Origin: Alkalinema sp. RU_4_3
Lineage (GTDB): Bacteria > Cyanobacteriota > Cyanobacteriia > Leptolyngbyales > Leptolyngbyaceae
Direction: 5' to 3'
Assembly: GCA_012031975.1 (NCBI GenBank)
Contig: JAAUSA010000007.1
Location: 1-54,736 of the forward strand
Length of the DNA: 54,736 bases
Positions 46,334-54,736 of the stretch are shown here, piece by piece. The notes beneath the pieces were generated by a model. That model worked only from the letters and a program-made list of their open reading frames with translations, was not told the origin of the DNA and ran no database searches. Both the position numbers and the translations under genes were made by a program. Position 1 is the first letter of the stretch, and each line of letters starts with the position of its first letter.

Positions 46334-47806
46334 CTAATGAGGATTCCCGTCACTGTCTAGCACTACTTTGATTAGGAAATAACCATTGTCATTAAGTATG
46401 TATTGAACTTGCGTAGGGGGAACAGCTTGTCTACCTCCAGTAAATGTAAAGCCATGACAGTTGTAATTTGTTGTGGGAGGCTCAAGTTCAACAATTGGAC
46501 TTTTTCCTTTATGATTCTGAATGTGTTCCTTTATGCTTTTTGCATCTCCTTCCTCAGCATAGCCTGTCAGAAAAGTTGTTATCAAACGATCTTTGTCTGT
46601 GTAGTATCCATTAGCAAGGTTTAAAGGAAACTTTCGAGTTGGACGTACTATTAGTAGATTGTTTCTGCTACCATCTTTGCGTTTTGCACGCCAAACTGTC
46701 CAAGATTTTCCGTATACACTATCATTTGGGTCATGAAGATAGAGTCCTTGTCCTCCCCACTTGCTTTTGATTTGAGTGATAGTGCCATCTGGACGAACAC
46801 CTGTGATGACACCTGAGTGAGTAATCGCTCCATTTCCATTACTTGCTCGATAAATTACAATATCGCCCTGTTCTGGTAAAGTTTCCTCCTTGTTGGGTTT
46901 CGCAATTTCGTTAGATGCATCCCGCGTCATTATCCAGCTACCTGAGCCACCTGAACCAATTCGGTTAGAGCCTCTCCGCTGTTGTATCCAAGTTCCCGCA
47001 AGACGATTGCCATTTTCGGAAAGTACCAGTGTGGCAGTACCATCCATATCATTCCAAGATTGATAATACTGAAACACGAGTTTGCATTTCTTTGAATCAA
47101 AACTGCCCGATTTGATCTGCCCGACTCCACTTCCCGGTTGATTCCAACTTCCTGACAAATTTGAATTAAATTTCACTTGCCCCCAATCTGATCGCCATTC
47201 TCCAGCGATCGAAACATTGGAAGTACACGACACTGGTTTCTCGCGTGTCATAGTCCATCCACCAGAGCCACCAGAGCCTGGTCGATTAGATCCCCTTGGC
47301 TGTTGTGACCAAGTTCCTGAAAGGCGATTGCCATCTTCTGAAAGAGTAAACGTGCCAGTACCCGTCATGTTATTCCAAGGCTGGTAATACTGAAACACGA
47401 GCTTACGTGTTTTTGAATCATAACTGCCGCTAGTAATCTGTCCGATCCCACCGCCTTGGTTCCAACGCCCCGTTAAATTGGCATTAAATTCTACTACTCC
47501 CCACTCTGACTGCCACTTTCCTTCGAGTGAAACAGGTGACGGATTAGCCGCTAATATCAACTCTTCTTGGATCGGTTGGGAGACACTAGAAATAGGGGCA
47601 GAATGAGGCAATGTAGAGGGAGCAATACCCATCGGTGGCACCGCCGCAGTAGCAACTTCACCCCGCCCAAAAAGTTCATAATAAGCCGTAGAATTAAAAC
47701 TCAGCAGCCCAAAGAGAAGAAAGGTGATCGCTTTTCTTAGAAAAACTGCATTGACAACCGTTAGACAGGTGAGAAGCGCAACAAGAGCTAGACGGAACTG
47801 CCGCAT
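46334..47806 (-). CDS. Secreted protein with two lipocalin-like repeats and a C-terminal Cys/His domain (cassette gene)
   Basis: This 490-residue protein has hydrophobic N-terminal segments (LALVALLTCLTVVNAVF, AITFLLFGLLSF), then two near-identical repeats of about 94 residues (95-189 and 201-296), each GxWxSxWGxVxFNxNLxGxWNQ...GTWxQQxRGSNRxGSGG. A C-terminal half follows: GDIVIYRASNGNGAITHSG (His330) resembles NlpC/P60-like or CHAP domains, but the Cys-containing NYNCHGFTF (Cys450) comes after it, as in permuted papain-like folds. I infer a possible cell-wall or protein hydrolase. It is the only gene between two attC-like sites, and its 3' end faces the left one. Confidence 0.7.
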   Translation of the reverse strand: MRQFRLALVALLTCLTVVNAVFLRKAITFLLFGLLSFNSTAYYELFGRGEVATAAVPPMGIAPSTLPHSAPISSVSQPIQEELILAANPSPVSLEGKWQSEWGVVEFNANLTGRWNQGGGIGQITSGSYDSKTRKLVFQYYQPWNNMTGTGTFTLSEDGNRLSGTWSQQPRGSNRPGSGGSGGWTMTREKPVSCTSNVSIAGEWRSDWGQVKFNSNLSGSWNQPGSGVGQIKSGSFDSKKCKLVFQYYQSWNDMDGTATLVLSENGNRLAGTWIQQRRGSNRIGSGGSGSWIMTRDASNEIAKPNKEETLPEQGDIVIYRASNGNGAITHSGVITGVRPDGTITQIKSKWGGQGLYLHDPNDSVYGKSWTVWRAKRKDGSRNNLLIVRPTRKFPLNLANGYYTDKDRLITTFLTGYAEEGDAKSIKEHIQNHKGKSPIVELEPPTTNYNCHGFTFTGGRQAVPPTQVQYILNDNGYFLIKVVLDSDGNPH

Positions 47807-48042
47807 GATAGAAACCTATTGTAAAAATAAAATCTTTTAATACGCCCTGAATAGAAATTTACAGTATTGACTCTGAATGATCCAGTATTTTCCGCCACAA
47901 AAGTTTCATTCTAATGTTACGAAAAGTACAGTAAATGGCTACTTGTGTGAGATCACTTGAATCAGCCTAGAGCTAGTTGTCTCAGTCTCTTACGCTTTGA
48001 CAGATAAACATCAAACACTGTCTTAACCGATAATTTGAAGCC

Positions 48043-48124
48043 GCATAACGACCCCGCTCACCGGACGCAGATAACCTCTGCATCTCACCAACAACTTGAC
48101 TTCGTTCCGGTGCAGCGGGATTGT
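48043..48124 (-). repeat. attC site 4 (left part), interrupted by a group II intron
   Basis: Minus-strand reading: R' GTTATGC (48043-48049) preceded by GGTC, L' TCCGGTGAGCGGG, and L'' CCCGCTGCACCGGA (48106-48119) with one extra base. The R'' core is split: TTGT at 48121-48124 continues at 50087 as TAGCT, giving GTTAGCT on the plus strand. Joined, the site is 87 bases, the same as the sites at 51206, 52437 and 53899. Confidence 0.8.
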
Positions 48125-48643
48125 GTACGCCCAGCATGGGCGTGAGCTAATGGGGTGCAAGTCCCCTGGGGGAGAACCCGCATCCAAATGCTCGCAAGTC
48201 TTGGAGCCGAGTGATGCCAACCCCTAGTCTAAGGCAAGAGCGTCTCCGTGAGGAGGGGTTTGAAGGAAGCCAGCGACAAAACTGCGTGCCGACGGACAGA
48301 AACGTCATAGAAGGCTGGAATCTCCGGGGCGAGTTAGCACAACATAACAAAGCCCACGGGTTCAGGAGACACGGTAAATGACGCGGTCATGCAGGGAAAG
48401 TTCACGTTCTTATCTGGGGAGATCTGCCTCAATGGCAGTCTTAGAGACTACGGGAGTCTGATTGAGGTCTATCTGGAAACGGGTAGGTAGCCACAGAACC
48501 CTAAGGCTTCAAAGGCGGCCCAGCAGTCGGCAACGGCTGTTGCAAGGGGCAGAAGTCAGCCGAGGCCATAGTAGTCAAATGCCAAGCTGTAATGGTTTGG
48601 ACAGGGCGAAGGGCCGAACCCAATTAATTTTTAAGGAGGAGCG

Positions 48644-50008
48644 ATGGAAAACTCAGACGTTTCGCTGAACCCGTCCGGGGGAGAAATGGATGTGCGTGGA
48701 GCCATAGAGCCAGCCTTAGAGACAGATCTGATGGAGCGAATTCTCAGCTCAGAGAATCTGCACCGAGCATGGCGACAAGTGAGGTCAAATCGAGGCGCGC
48801 CCGGCATTGACGGGATGCGTATTGAAGACTTTCCGGCCTACGCTCGGCTTCACTGGGAGGAGATTCGTCAATCTTTGCGAGAGGGTAAGTATCAACCGAC
48901 TCCTGTGCGGCGGGTAGTGATACCTAAGCCGGGTGGGAAGGGAGAACGTTTGCTCGGTGTGCCTTCGGTCTTGGACCGGGTGATCCAGCAGGCCATCTTG
49001 CAAGTGCTGAGGCCCATCTTTGACCCGGAATTTTCCGAGTACAGTTTTGGGTGTCGTCCGAAGCGCAGTGCCCATGGTGCGATCTTACAGGTAAAAGCCT
49101 ATGTCAAGCAGGGATACCGAGGCGTGGTGGATTTGGACTTGGAAAAGTTCTTTGACACCGTGAATCAGGATGTCCTTATGGCAAGGGTCTCCCGCAAGGT
49201 GCGGGATAAGACGCTACTGAGCTTGATTGGTCGCTACCTGCGTGCCGGGGTAATGGTTGAAGGGAAGGTCGAAGCAACGGACTGGGGCACGCCGCAAGGC
49301 TCTCCCCTATCGCCATTGCTGGCCAACATCCTGTTGGATGACCTAGACCAGGAGTTGGAGCGTCGGGGTCACCGTTTTGTTCGCTATATGGACGATCTGG
49401 TCATTTTGGTCAAATCGCCCCGAGCGGCTAGGCGTGTAATGGCGAGTGTGACTCACTACCTGACCCAGAAGCTGCGACTCAAGGTAAATCCGCTCAAAAG
49501 CCGTGTTTGCCGTATCGAACGATTGGAATACTTGGGGTTTACCTTTCAAGGAATTCGGATCATTTGGACAGAACAAGCATTCCAAGACTTCAAGCATCGT
49601 TTGCGAGGATTGACCTCCAGGCGATGGCGGGTGTCGATGGAATATCGTATTGGGCGGATTAATCAGTATCTGCGTGGATGGATGGGCTACTTTGGTATTT
49701 CCAAATTGTATGGTCCGATTCCAGAGTTAGACAGTTGGCTGAGACGACGTATCCGGATGTGTTATTGGAAACAATGGCGTAAACCGAGAACGCGCATCGG
49801 CAACCTGCTGAGGCTAGGAACGCCGAGACAACATGCTTTCTCGACTGGCTTGAGCCGGAAGGGATATTGGCGGTTGTCGCGGACGATGGCGACGCATACG
49901 GGAATGACAAATGAGTGGCTAGCACAACAGGGATTGCTATCGATTCGCGATCTCTGGATGAGGGTTCAGGGATACGATAAGAAGCCTGTCAAGTTGTCTA
50001 GCAGTTAG
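48644..50008 (+). CDS. Group II intron reverse transcriptase/maturase
   Basis: This 454-residue protein has RT blocks RRVVIPKPGGKGERLLGVPSVLDRVIQQAI, SFGCRPKRSAHGAI, VVDLDLEKFFDTVNQD, GTPQGSPLSPLLANILLDDLD (215-235) and the catalytic YMDD (248-251), followed by maturase domain X (YRIGRINQYLRGWMGYFGI) and the C-terminal SRKGYWRLSRTMATHTGMTNEWLAQQGL. There is no HNH endonuclease, as expected for class C introns that use structured targets. It splices the intron RNA and reverse transcribes it into DNA. AAGGAGGAGCG precedes the ATG. Confidence 0.95.
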   Translation: MENSDVSLNPSGGEMDVRGAIEPALETDLMERILSSENLHRAWRQVRSNRGAPGIDGMRIEDFPAYARLHWEEIRQSLREGKYQPTPVRRVVIPKPGGKGERLLGVPSVLDRVIQQAILQVLRPIFDPEFSEYSFGCRPKRSAHGAILQVKAYVKQGYRGVVDLDLEKFFDTVNQDVLMARVSRKVRDKTLLSLIGRYLRAGVMVEGKVEATDWGTPQGSPLSPLLANILLDDLDQELERRGHRFVRYMDDLVILVKSPRAARRVMASVTHYLTQKLRLKVNPLKSRVCRIERLEYLGFTFQGIRIIWTEQAFQDFKHRLRGLTSRRWRVSMEYRIGRINQYLRGWMGYFGISKLYGPIPELDSWLRRRIRMCYWKQWRKPRTRIGNLLRLGTPRQHAFSTGLSRKGYWRLSRTMATHTGMTNEWLAQQGLLSIRDLWMRVQGYDKKPVKLSSS

Positions 50009-50013
50009 GTTGG

Positions 50014-50052
50014 GAACCGCCCGGTGCGGACCCGCACGCCGGGTGGCGTGGG
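50014..50052 (+). ncRNA. Group II intron domain V
   Basis: GAACCGCCCGGTGCGG and CCGCACGCCGGGTGGCG fold into the paired catalytic hairpin, with the AGC/ACC-like triad and bulge expected for IIC domain V, 6 bases after the maturase stop. Confidence 0.7.
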
Positions 50053-50106
50053 AGGGGGAGATCGTGAGGTTTTCCCCTATCCCGATTAGCTAGCGACACT
50101 TAATCA

Positions 50107-51075
50107 TTACCACTCGCTATATAGTCTTTCAACATAAGTCATTATTTCCTCCCTGGGTAAACGAATTCTAGGCTTTTGCAGTGGGTACAAACTTTCCAAA
50201 GTAGCTAAATCTTGCTCTACAACCTTTGCTGTTGACTGCATCAATGACCTCCGAGCGATCGCATTTATTCCCGGCAACTGAAATAATGGATTCTTCCATT
50301 TGCCATAGCATAAGACAAAGGTTTTTGTTCGATGTTCAGTTTCAGGGTACAAAATGAAGAACTGTGGAACATGCCCAATATCAACCTCAGCTCTGAACAT
50401 GGTCGTTGAGGGAAAACTGTATTCTAGTTCGCTTCTATAGGATTTTGGAATACTGAACAGAGCAGGGTTCTCCAGAATCTCACTCAGAGTATTATCTTCG
50501 CGCAGAAAGGTCAGTTCAACTCTGGCACGGTAACCATCCTCTTCAAAAGTATGAATTGGATTTTCACGAATCTTAAAGCTTGCGCGATGGCTGCCGTTTT
50601 GGTGATTAAAGTCGTAGTTGATTTTAATGCAACTTAAAAAGCTTGCATGGATGCTCTTTTCACCTGCAACACCAAGAAAACTCAAGCCCTTAGTTCTTCG
50701 AGAAATCAGATCGGGAATGGGCAAGCGCGGATCAAAACCTCCATACGTCCAGATTAGGTCGCCTTGAACCACTAACTCTAAGGTCTTTGCGATCGCTTGA
50801 CCATTTGGTTCTCCATCCTTGAGTAACTGACCGTTGCCATTAAACTCAAGAGCATGAAAGGGACACGCAATAGAGTTGCGAGACTCACAAATCCAACCTT
50901 CAGAAAGGGGAGCCTGCATGTGAGGGCAAATATTTTCGAGAGCAAATATTTCACCTTGTGTATTTTGCCACAAGACATAATCTTGACTGTTGAGCGTAAT
51001 CTTGTAGGGTTTGTTTAAACTCAACATTGAGCGATGTGCAACTAACCAAGGAGCACCCGGAAGAACTATTGTCAT
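50107..51075 (-). CDS. Rieske non-haem iron oxygenase (cassette gene)
   Basis: This 322-residue protein has an N-terminal Rieske domain with CPH (Cys50, His52) and CPFH (Cys71, His74) as 2Fe-2S ligands, and the mononuclear-iron motif with Asp155, His158 and His163 in NYDFNHQNGSH. This matches the oxygenase component of aromatic-ring or tetrapyrrole-side-chain oxygenases. No ferredoxin or reductase is adjacent. AGGAG precedes ATG 51075. Its stop lies 16 bases from the R'' end of attC 4 and its start 130 bases from attC 3, so it is alone in its cassette. Confidence 0.88.
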   Translation of the reverse strand: MTIVLPGAPWLVAHRSMLSLNKPYKITLNSQDYVLWQNTQGEIFALENICPHMQAPLSEGWICESRNSIACPFHALEFNGNGQLLKDGEPNGQAIAKTLELVVQGDLIWTYGGFDPRLPIPDLISRRTKGLSFLGVAGEKSIHASFLSCIKINYDFNHQNGSHRASFKIRENPIHTFEEDGYRARVELTFLREDNTLSEILENPALFSIPKSYRSELEYSFPSTTMFRAEVDIGHVPQFFILYPETEHRTKTFVLCYGKWKNPLFQLPGINAIARRSLMQSTAKVVEQDLATLESLYPLQKPRIRLPREEIMTYVERLYSEW

Positions 51076-51205
51076 AAGAATGCTCTCCTGTTTTAGACGG
51101 TTGGCAACGACAATTCTCTTCCCTCAATTTTATCAACAGACTGCTGCTTCAAGATTGAGCGCTTCACCGACAATTCTCAAATGCCGCCCCACCGACAAAC
51201 CAGCA

Positions 51206-51291
51206 GGCTAACGACCAAGATAAGCGGCGGCAAATAGATTTTGCAACTCTATCAAGATCTCTTGTCCGTCCGCTTCATCGACGTGTTAGCT
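51206..51291 (-). repeat. attC site 3
   Basis: 86 bases. Minus-strand reading: R'' AGCTAAC (51285-51291), L'' GATGAAGCGGACGG with one base extra, then L' CCGCCGCTTATC and R' GTTAGCC (51206-51212) preceded by GGTC. The L arms pair well apart from the extra base. It starts 4 bases after the stop of the cupin gene. Confidence 0.8.
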
Positions 51292-51295
51292 GGCG

Positions 51296-51643
51296 CTATG
51301 CACCACCACCAGATTCAAATGCACCCATTCTCCCAAGCCGAATGGTAATAATTTCCACATCCGTGATGGCTTTGTGAGAACCTTGCTGAGTGTGAGCAGG
51401 TGTAATCCAGAACGTACCTTGAGAACAAGTTGTTCCACCAGTTTCCACAACTCCACTTAACACGTAAACGTACTCATTACAAGGGTGCGTGTGGATAGGG
51501 ATGATAGTCCCAGCCTTCAGCTTCAGTAAGTGAATTGAACCCTCTGACACAGGCTCAGCCAAAGGCAAAAACTGTGTGCCGGGGAACTGCTCCATGTTCA
51601 GCCATTGCCCAGAGTCAGTTTGAATGAAAGTCTGTTCTGGCAT
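51296..51643 (-). CDS. Cupin-domain protein, regulated partner of TetR (cassette gene)
   Basis: This 115-residue cupin has GTIIPIHTHPCNEYVYVLSG (motif 1 with two His and a Glu) and GTFWITPAHTQQGSH (motif 2). The anti-sigma ChrR or dioxygenase-like cupins share it; a metal site is probable but the reaction is unknown. It is divergent from a TetR gene over 79 bases with a palindromic operator, and ends 4 bases from attC 3. Confidence 0.85.
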   Translation of the reverse strand: MPEQTFIQTDSGQWLNMEQFPGTQFLPLAEPVSEGSIHLLKLKAGTIIPIHTHPCNEYVYVLSGVVETGGTTCSQGTFWITPAHTQQGSHKAITDVEIITIRLGRMGAFESGGGA

Positions 51644-51676
51644 ATCCTAATTTCTCATGGTAAGGTAATGGGGCAC

Positions 51677-51695
51677 GAGTGAATAATATTCACTC
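51677..51695. promoter_or_regulatory. Palindromic operator between cupin and TetR genes
   Basis: GAGTGAATA and TATTCACTC form a perfect 19-base palindrome around one A, in the 79-base divergent spacer. It also covers a possible -10 (TAATAT). It is the expected size for a TetR dimer site, so the regulator probably controls itself and the cupin gene. Confidence 0.7.
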
Positions 51696-51722
51696 CCGAA
51701 GCTTATCATAAACCTCTACAGC

Positions 51723-52361
51723 ATGAGCAGGCAATTGAAAACCTCGCAATCCCGTTACGATATTGAAGGCAGATATAAAGCACTACTTGAAGCAGGTGAG
51801 ACTTTATTATGCAATGGGTATGACAGCGCTCAGCCCCAACTCATTGCCAAAACTGCAGGCGTGTCGATTGGACTATTTTATCGACACTTCAAAAACAAGC
51901 AGGAATTGCTAACTGCCATTATGGTTCATCATTTAGGGATTTTGCATCGCCAAACTATACAGGAAATTGAGTATTCCCCCAATCCAGTTGAAGCACTTCA
52001 TATTGTCCTAATTTTGACGCTGCGCTACTTCCAAGCTCATCAAGGACTGATCAAGCTCTTTTTCATGCAAATCGGTTATGGGGATGCGATCGCAACCGAA
52101 CAATTGCGAGAAGCTAGGAAAACTTATCGAAATATCTTGGAATCCATTCTCCAATCAGGAATTGCGAGAGGTGTATTCATTACTCCAGATGATTTGGATA
52201 TTCAAATAGCTATCAATAGCATTATTGGGACGATTAACTGGTCACTCTACGACCTGTTAATTGTTAGAAATGAAGCGATAGAACCAGATGACCTGGGAGC
52301 AAGGCTCTCAACGCATATTCTTCGTGGTCTGGGTTATGAATTTAATACCGTACACCCATAA
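51723..52361 (+). CDS. TetR-family transcription regulator (cassette gene)
   Basis: This 212-residue protein has an N-terminal HTH (YKALLEAGETLLCNGYDSAQPQLIAKTAGVSIGLFYRHFKNKQELLTAI, about 18-66) and a ligand-binding helical C-terminal domain. It reads towards attC 2, opposite to the cassette orientation, and is divergent from the cupin gene with which it shares an operator. The effector is unknown. Confidence 0.9.
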   Translation: MSRQLKTSQSRYDIEGRYKALLEAGETLLCNGYDSAQPQLIAKTAGVSIGLFYRHFKNKQELLTAIMVHHLGILHRQTIQEIEYSPNPVEALHIVLILTLRYFQAHQGLIKLFFMQIGYGDAIATEQLREARKTYRNILESILQSGIARGVFITPDDLDIQIAINSIIGTINWSLYDLLIVRNEAIEPDDLGARLSTHILRGLGYEFNTVHP

Positions 52362-52436
52362 CCGAAAACTTACGCTGACTTGGCTCCCGAAACCAGCATA
52401 TAACTTTCATGTGCTCCCCTAACCAAGGTTTAAGCC

Positions 52437-52523
52437 AGCTAACGGTTGCAATCAGCGGCGACGAGTAAACTTTGCAGCATCACCAAGGTCCCTCAACCGT
52501 CCGCTGCATTGCAATTGTTATAC
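52437..52523 (-). repeat. attC site 2
   Basis: 87 bases. Minus-strand reading: R'' GTATAAC (52517-52523), L'' TTGCAATGCAGCGG, L' CCGCTGATTGCAA and R' GTTAGCT (52437-52443). The L arms pair over 13 bases with one extra G in L''. It is the clearest of the sites and starts 8 bases after the stop of the next cupin gene. Confidence 0.85.
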
Positions 52524-52531
52524 TGCGCTAT

Positions 52532-52852
52532 CTACACTTGCTTTTCTGGATAGAAGATAAACAGCGTACAACCTGTCTTAGATTGGGGAACATGACTAGA
52601 CCCAACTGGATGATGAATGAATGTTCCGGCAGGATAGTCACGAGTCCCATCATTAAAAACTCCACTCATGACCAAAACTTCCTCTGAATTGTCTTGGTGG
52701 AAGTCAACGCCCTCCCATCGAGCGCCAGGTGCAATCTCAACCACCACTGCCTGTGATCCAGCATCACCTTGCCATAACTGGCGCACAGAAATTCCACTGA
52801 AAACCTCTTGAACTGGGCTATCTTGTCCGTTTGACCATACTATTGTACTCAT
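52532..52852 (-). CDS. Cupin-domain protein, ChrR-like (cassette gene)
   Basis: This 106-residue cupin has GARWEGVDFHQDNSEEVLVMSGVFNDG (motif 1) and YPAGTFIHHPVGSSHVP (motif 2), the pattern of ChrR-like cupins of the anti-sigma group. It differs from the cupin at 51296. It is divergent from a LysR regulator and ends 8 bases from attC 2. Substrate and metal are unknown. Confidence 0.85.
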   Translation of the reverse strand: MSTIVWSNGQDSPVQEVFSGISVRQLWQGDAGSQAVVVEIAPGARWEGVDFHQDNSEEVLVMSGVFNDGTRDYPAGTFIHHPVGSSHVPQSKTGCTLFIFYPEKQV

Positions 52853-52919
52853 TTAGATCCTCTCCTTTGAACTTGTAACTGAAGCTTAAACTGCTAAAAT
52901 CTATTTGTCAAAATGAACT

Positions 52920-52940
52920 AAATGAATTTAAGATTCATTT
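52920..52940. promoter_or_regulatory. Inverted repeat in the LysR-cupin spacer
   Basis: AAATGAAT (52920-52927) and ATTCATTT (52933-52940) pair perfectly around TTAAG, 16 bases upstream of the LysR start and inside the 104-base divergent spacer. Size and place fit a LysR-type recognition site; a T-N11-A core is present. Confidence 0.6.
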
Positions 52941-52956
52941 TTACTGATATACACTT

Positions 52957-53844
52957 ATGGAATTTCGCCATCTACAGACCTTTCAAGCGATCGTGCAAGA
53001 AGGTAGCTTTCTGAAAGCCGCTGAAAAGCTTCAGTACGCACAATCCACAATCACATTGCATATCCAGCAGCTAGAAGCAGAGTTAGGCGTGAAACTTTTC
53101 TCTCGTCGCGGTAAGCGCACAGAATTAACGGTTGCTGGTAGAACCCTTCAAGATCACGCTGACTATCTACTTCATCGTGCAGCTAATTTACAGCAAACAA
53201 TGACTGATTTAGTTGCCGGGGAAGCTGGGCATCTACGAATCGGGTCAATCGAACCTGTTGCGAGTGTTCATTTGCCTACGGTACTGACACAATTTTGCCG
53301 TGAACACCCTAAAGTGCGTCTGACCTTAGAAGTTGGGGTGACTCAAGTGATTAGCCAGCGTGTAGCGGCAGGCTCACTAGATGCAGCGATCTGTTCACCT
53401 CCAAGTGCAAATTTAGATTTAGCTTTTGAATTGCTATTTCAAGATCCGATCGCACTGCTAATTCCAGAAACACACCAATTCGCCGCATTAGATTGTATTT
53501 CAGTTTCCTCATTGGTCGGAGAGCGTTTGATTCTTACCGAGGAACACTGTCCCTATCGTAATATTTTAGAGAAAGCGTTACTTCCTCATGGAATTAACCC
53601 CTTTTCAGGGATCGAAGTGATGAGTCTGGAAGCAATCAAACAAATGGTGCGATGTGGCTTAGGAGTGGGTGTCCTGCCTAGTGCTGCAATCGCTTCTCCC
53701 CCTCCACATACGATTACTCGAAATATCGCAGAGTTAGATTTGAAATTACCTGTTGGTGTTGTCTTTCAATCAGAAACAAGCTTTCCTGGCTCGACCTTGT
53801 ACTCACTAATTTCAGAATTGAAAGCCAGCTTGGAAAAACTCTAA
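52957..53844 (+). CDS. LysR-family transcription regulator (cassette gene)
   Basis: This 295-residue LTTR has the HTH MEFRHLQTFQAIVQEGSFLKAAEKLQYAQSTITLHIQQLEAELGVKLFSRRGKRTELT and a substrate-binding domain (LRIGSIEPVASVHLPTVL, MVRCGLGVGVLPSAA). It is divergent from the ChrR-like cupin gene and reads opposite to the cassette direction. By analogy it controls its own gene and the cupin; the inducer is unknown. Confidence 0.92.
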   Translation: MEFRHLQTFQAIVQEGSFLKAAEKLQYAQSTITLHIQQLEAELGVKLFSRRGKRTELTVAGRTLQDHADYLLHRAANLQQTMTDLVAGEAGHLRIGSIEPVASVHLPTVLTQFCREHPKVRLTLEVGVTQVISQRVAAGSLDAAICSPPSANLDLAFELLFQDPIALLIPETHQFAALDCISVSSLVGERLILTEEHCPYRNILEKALLPHGINPFSGIEVMSLEAIKQMVRCGLGVGVLPSAAIASPPPHTITRNIAELDLKLPVGVVFQSETSFPGSTLYSLISELKASLEKL

Positions 53845-53898
53845 TTGATGCAGCCCACAGACAGCCTTCAAATACTGTCTCCACCGACGACTTGAGCA

Positions 53899-53984
53899 GT
53901 ATAACGTTCGTGTTCAGCGGATGCAAATAATCTCTCGATCTTAATGACAAGACTAATAATTCCGCTGCAACACGATTGTTATGT
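53899..53984 (-). repeat. attC site 1
   Basis: 86 bases. Minus-strand reading: R'' ACATAAC (53978-53984), L'' CGTGTTGCAGCGGA with one extra base, L' TCCGCTGAACACG and R' GTTATAC (53899-53905). It lies 60 bases after the stop of the DUF3592-like gene. Confidence 0.8.
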
Positions 53985-54609: not shown

Positions 54610-54736
54610 GTCGGGTAAAGGAGAAGGTTTTAGATATAGCCTGCTCCCTCCCCTCAGAACCGTACGTACAACTTTCACTGTATACGGCTCAAGCAATCTC
54701 TAAGCCCCTTGGTGCAATTGTAGATGACAAACCATA
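54610..54736 (-). mobile_element. 3' end of a second group II intron (continues beyond the window)
   Basis: On the minus strand 54690-54657 reads a typical domain V (GAGCCGTATACAGTGAAAG, then TTGTACGTACGGTTC). A domain VI-like stem and an end TTTACCCGAC follow at 54610. Its sequence is unlike the domain V at 50014, so it is a different intron class. The maturase, if any, lies to the right. Confidence 0.8.

Follow-up and report, generated by a model that had tools for sequence, protein, structure and literature searches.

In a cassette array of the cyanobacterium Alkalinema sp. RU_4_3, an autonomous group IIC-attC intron has, with very little doubt, inserted by retrotransposition into an attC site, on its folded bottom strand. 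The window, meaning the whole 54,736-nucleotide stretch of DNA analysed here, displays directly the anatomy of the element, its ends, a pairing with the exon that covaries among relatives and an intact open reading frame; the family of its target site and two occupied attC sites are likewise observed. An initial annotation of the window had assigned the intron to the IIC-attC type, and this assignment is borne out by a class C reverse transcriptase (RT), by the CGC of domain V and by a protein tree in which it falls inside the IIC-attC lineage. The coordinates of the features are given in Table 1.

Table 1. Coordinates of the intron, its target site and the neighbouring features in the window.
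Feature	Position	Strand	Description and basis
attC part with L'', L' and R' boxes (3' part in cassette direction)	48043..48124	-	5' exon on the bottom strand, with IBS1 TTGT at its end
IBS1, TTGT	48121..48124	+	End of 5' exon; relatives and pairing test
Group IIC intron, complete	48125..50086	+	1,962 bases; ends common to about 40 relatives; Rfam matches
EBS1, ACAA	48339..48342	+	4 pairs with IBS1; place conserved in relatives, covaries with IBS1
Reverse transcriptase/maturase, intron-encoded	48644..50008	+	454 aa, intact; TIGR04416, RVT_1 and GIIM
Domains V and VI	50012..50086	+	CGC catalytic triad at 50018-50020; ends CCCGAT; domain edges approximate; sequence and relatives
attC R'' box, remaining end	50087..50091	-	3' exon on the bottom strand; IBS3 is T50087
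Rieske-domain oxygenase-like gene	50107..51075	-	PF00355; belongs to the cassette with the occupied attC
attC	51205..51291	-	Covariance model R1, 50.4 bits
attC	52436..52523	-	Inverted-repeat scan and covariance model
attC	53898..53984	-	Inverted-repeat scan and covariance model

Intron boundaries and exon recognition

In a reading of positions 47400-50700, the 82-base arm of the attC ends GGGATTGT at 48124 and the intron then opens GTACGCCCAGCATGGGCGTGAG, while on the 3' side the intron reads CCCTATCCCGAT and the exon from 50087 is TAGCTAGCG. Comparison with loci from public genomes, together with plasmid, viral and same-family loci, reveals the same arrangement in nearly all of about 40 relatives, with IBS1 followed directly by GUACGCCC at the 5' side and CCCGAU followed by U at the 3' side, in agreement with the ends first proposed. 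The start is GTACGCCC in relatives, or GTGCGCCC or GTGTGCCC in some others, and the 3' end is CCCGAT or CTCGAT with T nearly always as the next base, the window copy being CCCGAT/T at 50086. The GUGYG rule for the start of group II introns would favour position 48123 (GTGTACG, nearer to GUGYG). This candidate was ruled out because the exon bases directly before GTACG vary among relatives (TTGT, TGGT, TTTG, TTGG, CTTG, TAGTG and CTGGT), which places the start at 48125. Within these limits, Rfam models of group II domains D1-D4 match at 48242-48408 and 48519-48614, and domain V reads AACCGCC, thus carrying the CGC triad that marks IIC introns (PMC7923331).

The recognition sequence for the 5' exon, EBS1, is found about 215 bases into the intron at a conserved place (GAGUUAGC-ACAA-CAUAACAAAG). 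The initial annotation had made its junction depend on EBS1/IBS1 pairing, and ACAA pairs with all four bases of the exon UUGU, within the 3-4 bp expected of IIC-attC introns. Moreover, the combination TTGT/ACAA occurs in 27 of 38 introns and full pairing in 30 of the 38. Compensated changes are present in L052 (TGGT/ACCA), L056 (CTTG/CAAG) and L051 (TTTG/CAAA) and, among cyanobacterial loci, in L170 (TAGT/ACTA), L177 (GTGT/ACAC) and L183 (TGGT/ACCA). The mean number of EBS1-IBS1 pairs is 3.79 of 4, versus 3.22 when EBS1 is reshuffled among the introns (none of 50,000 shuffles as good), and the covariation test in cyanobacteria alone gives a p of about 0.016, both tests leaving shared ancestry in. 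This natural IBS1/EBS1 variation offers material for work on the selection of hairpin targets by class C introns.

The target attC and the cassette array

Joining 48124 to 50087 yields ...GGGATTGT/TAGCT, and the joined site (GCATAACGACCCCGCTCACCGGA...TCCGGTGCAGCGGGATTGTTAGCT) is an attC of 82 + 5 = 87 bases, so that the junction and the restored attC of the initial annotation prove right to the base. A scan detects two attC-like inverted repeats in the unjoined window and a third once it is joined, and five shuffled versions give none; the joined site is missed by a strict attC scan and recovered with a relaxed core rule. Since a crude attC score applied over the relatives was too insensitive, missing known class 1 controls too, it gave way to a covariance model trained on 15 attC sites. 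In the underlying alignment, 96% of the cells of the 17-pair stem are paired, both sides have changed in 8 of the pairs, and none of 500 shuffles scores as high. This model detects four attC in the window (starts 48042, 51205, 52436 and 53898) in one orientation, and 13 attC-like sites in the genome. Its training set includes the joined site and two other sites from the window; therefore, the independent support comes from the wider occurrence of the attC family. The host is a Leptolyngbyaceae-like cyanobacterium, and in most genomes of its family, to which Leptolyngbya sp. FACHB-321 belongs, there are intact intron-free attC of the same attC family that run through the junction position. As for the intron-free allele suggested for comparison at the outset, many such sites were found but not the allele of the exact locus, searches with the joined flanks and with the Rieske protein leading to attC repeats and to distant homologues (37-44% identity).

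All four attC of the window are on the minus strand and the intron is on the plus strand; it stands after TTGT within the R'' box and opposite to the cassette genes, as had been described. With four attC in 48042-53984 and no TIGR02249 match on the contig, the array corresponds to a CALIN (at least two neighbouring attC without intI). A complete integron with an intact intI was not found in the genome, a draft assembly of 362 contigs, which holds only truncated TIGR02249 matches below the cut-off. One integron integrase-like gene (L008, G000:C54:456-1085) is truncated at model position 210 of 315 and is without internal stops. Across the family, integron integrases over the curated cut-off are present in 29 of 42 genomes, and in 0 of 14 control genomes.

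The neighbouring cassettes encode cupin-like proteins with TetR or LysR regulators. At 51723-53844, cassettes contain a ChrR-cupin-like gene beside a divergent TetR or LysR regulator, both strands being used within single cassettes. Also, the contig end carries, at 54610-54692 on the minus strand, a match of 63.9 bits to Rfam Intron_gpII, which corresponds to domain V/VI of another group II intron and is located upstream of the first attC in the cassette direction.

The intron-encoded protein and its relatives

The protein matches TIGR04416 with 398 bits, and its best solved relative in the PDB is the GsI-IIC RT (439 bits); by sequence it is assigned to the class C group II RT/maturases. No endonuclease domain was found in it, the domains seen being RVT_1 and GIIM only, and no other group II RT in this genome passes the cut-off. 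A tree of 55 proteins, obtained by a quick method with SH-aLRT as the only support values, groups the six cyanobacterial proteins in one clade (support 100) nested in a 42-row clade (support 100) that includes the class 1 integron introns L030 and L031 and leaves out the Bacillota and actinobacterial proteins. The protein sequences place the intron in a cyanobacterial branch of the already known IIC-attC introns.

A second copy (L002, G000:C161:8926-10496) is 91-96% identical and lacks about 410 bases of the ORF. It sits in another attC, on contig C161, with the exon ATTGT/TATGC, which shows that the element inserted at two different attC sites. This second copy may be non-autonomous, with the window copy acting as its helper. 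Beyond this genome, relatives of the intron were detected in 22 out of 390 genomes sampled from the class, and these represent several families. At 15 of the 19 readable loci of these relatives, all outside the training set, the match to the attC model stops at the 5' splice site. This count takes in a duplicate of L033 and three matches that are weak (14.8-17.9 bits); the other four loci are attC-like by eye. Two cyanobacterial genomes contain several copies, G123 (L181, L188, L190 and L192) and G333 (L172, L189 and L191), and are candidates for recent activity.

Proposed mechanism of insertion and its probable effect on the cassette

In the mechanism proposed here, the intron RNA, in complex with the maturase that it encodes, would recognise the attC hairpin and, via EBS1 (ACAA), the sequence UUGU. 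The RNA would then reverse-splice after UUGU and before U into the folded bottom strand and, as the element has no endonuclease domain, would be copied into DNA without one, the single strand exposed by replication probably being used for the copying. By analogy, we infer that the intron would splice and be mobile, that its insertion would be strand-specific and dependent on replication, and that it may be currently active. Regarding the last point, it is possible, although rather doubtful, that the intron is now an immobile relic in a dead cassette array without integrase, since the integron integrase match is truncated, the second copy has an internal deletion and several related ORFs carry stops. 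However, the window copy keeps an intact ORF, the EBS1-IBS1 match and the conserved ends, and the integron integrase is not needed for the movement of the intron itself, as IIC introns move without it.

The insertion cuts the Rieske gene off from the greater part of its attC and divides the R'' box, hence excision of this cassette would probably be blocked or weakened. In agreement, DNA folding gives -16.4 kcal/mol for the occupied site versus -19.0 kcal/mol for the joined site, and the occupied site loses the R-box pairing. It appears unlikely that the occupied attC can still recombine through an R box rebuilt, with a bulged G, by the initial bases of the intron (G-TA): the attC model does match 48042-48130 across the exon-intron junction with 93 bits, but the R box is not formed on folding the DNA of the occupied site, most of the model score is given by the L boxes, and the joined attC belongs to the training set. 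An equally improbable account joins two elements, namely that cyanobacteria have their own long-standing IIC-attC branch tuned to cyanobacterial attC, and that GUA rebuilds the R box so that an integrase could move cassette and intron together. The first element, an own long-standing branch tuned to the cyanobacterial attC family, is supported; the second, in which the lineage-specific GUA start would rebuild the R box with one bulged G and leave the occupied cassette movable by the integrase, has weak support.

Comparison with known introns

The autonomous IIC-attC intron described here has its closest counterparts in S.ma.I2 and in the introns of class 1 integrons from blaIMP-4 plasmids (L030 and L031), with which it has in common the IIC ribozyme and the endonuclease-less RT. 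The target is also the same (attC R'', after TTGT and before T, opposite to the cassettes), as are the 5' GUACG and the 3' CCCGAU. L030 and L031, both from class 1 integrons on resistance plasmids, were used as known examples: they run opposite to the cassettes and have the same junction, and the window protein is 52-53% identical to theirs. The insertion consensus in the attC R'' at TTGT/T agrees with PMC7923331. Nonetheless, the window intron differs from the known ones in its cyanobacterial host, in the cyanobacterial attC family and in the separate, strongly supported clade of its protein.

Bacillota IIC introns of the GsI-IIC type resemble it in the class C RT, in a domain V with CGC and in an EBS1 at the same place, whereas they differ in a GUGCG start in most of the examples compared, in a target after T-rich terminators and in falling outside the clade. 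An ordinary terminator-inserting group IIC intron that an attC-like hairpin adjoins by chance is highly improbable and, as regards the target, already refuted, because although IIC introns generally insert after intrinsic terminators (PMC4424553) and the RT is close to GsI-IIC, the junction is without a T-rich terminator and interrupts the R'' box at the IIC-attC consensus, most of the cyanobacterial relatives occupy attC stems that are recognised by a model trained without them, and the tree sets the cyanobacterial proteins apart from the Bacillota class C introns. On the other hand, the integron-linked group IIB introns (UHB.I2, H. halochloris; PMC7923331) are likewise group II introns near an attC, but they have another class of ribozyme and of intron-encoded protein, and UHB.I2 has the same orientation as the cassettes.

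Both cyanobacterial integrons and models of their attC sites are already known (PMC8618304, PMC8352920, PMC2426708). A cyanobacterial IIC-attC branch was not found in the literature searched, which was without Quiroga and Centron 2009 and Leon and Roy 2009, and priority is not claimed. A part in the formation of gene cassettes has been proposed for IIC-attC introns, which carry outward promoters in known cases (PMC7923331, PMC8876359); given this proposal, the cyanobacterial clade, with many attC and integrase genes in the family, would be a non-pathogenic system for testing it. A promoter scan inside the window intron gave no convincing outward promoter.

Finally, the IIC-attC lineage opens GUACG (in the window, with its first three bases at 48125-48127, and in relatives) and most of the Bacillota and actinobacterial class C introns compared open GUGCG, one Peptococcaceae locus, L069, also opening GUACG.
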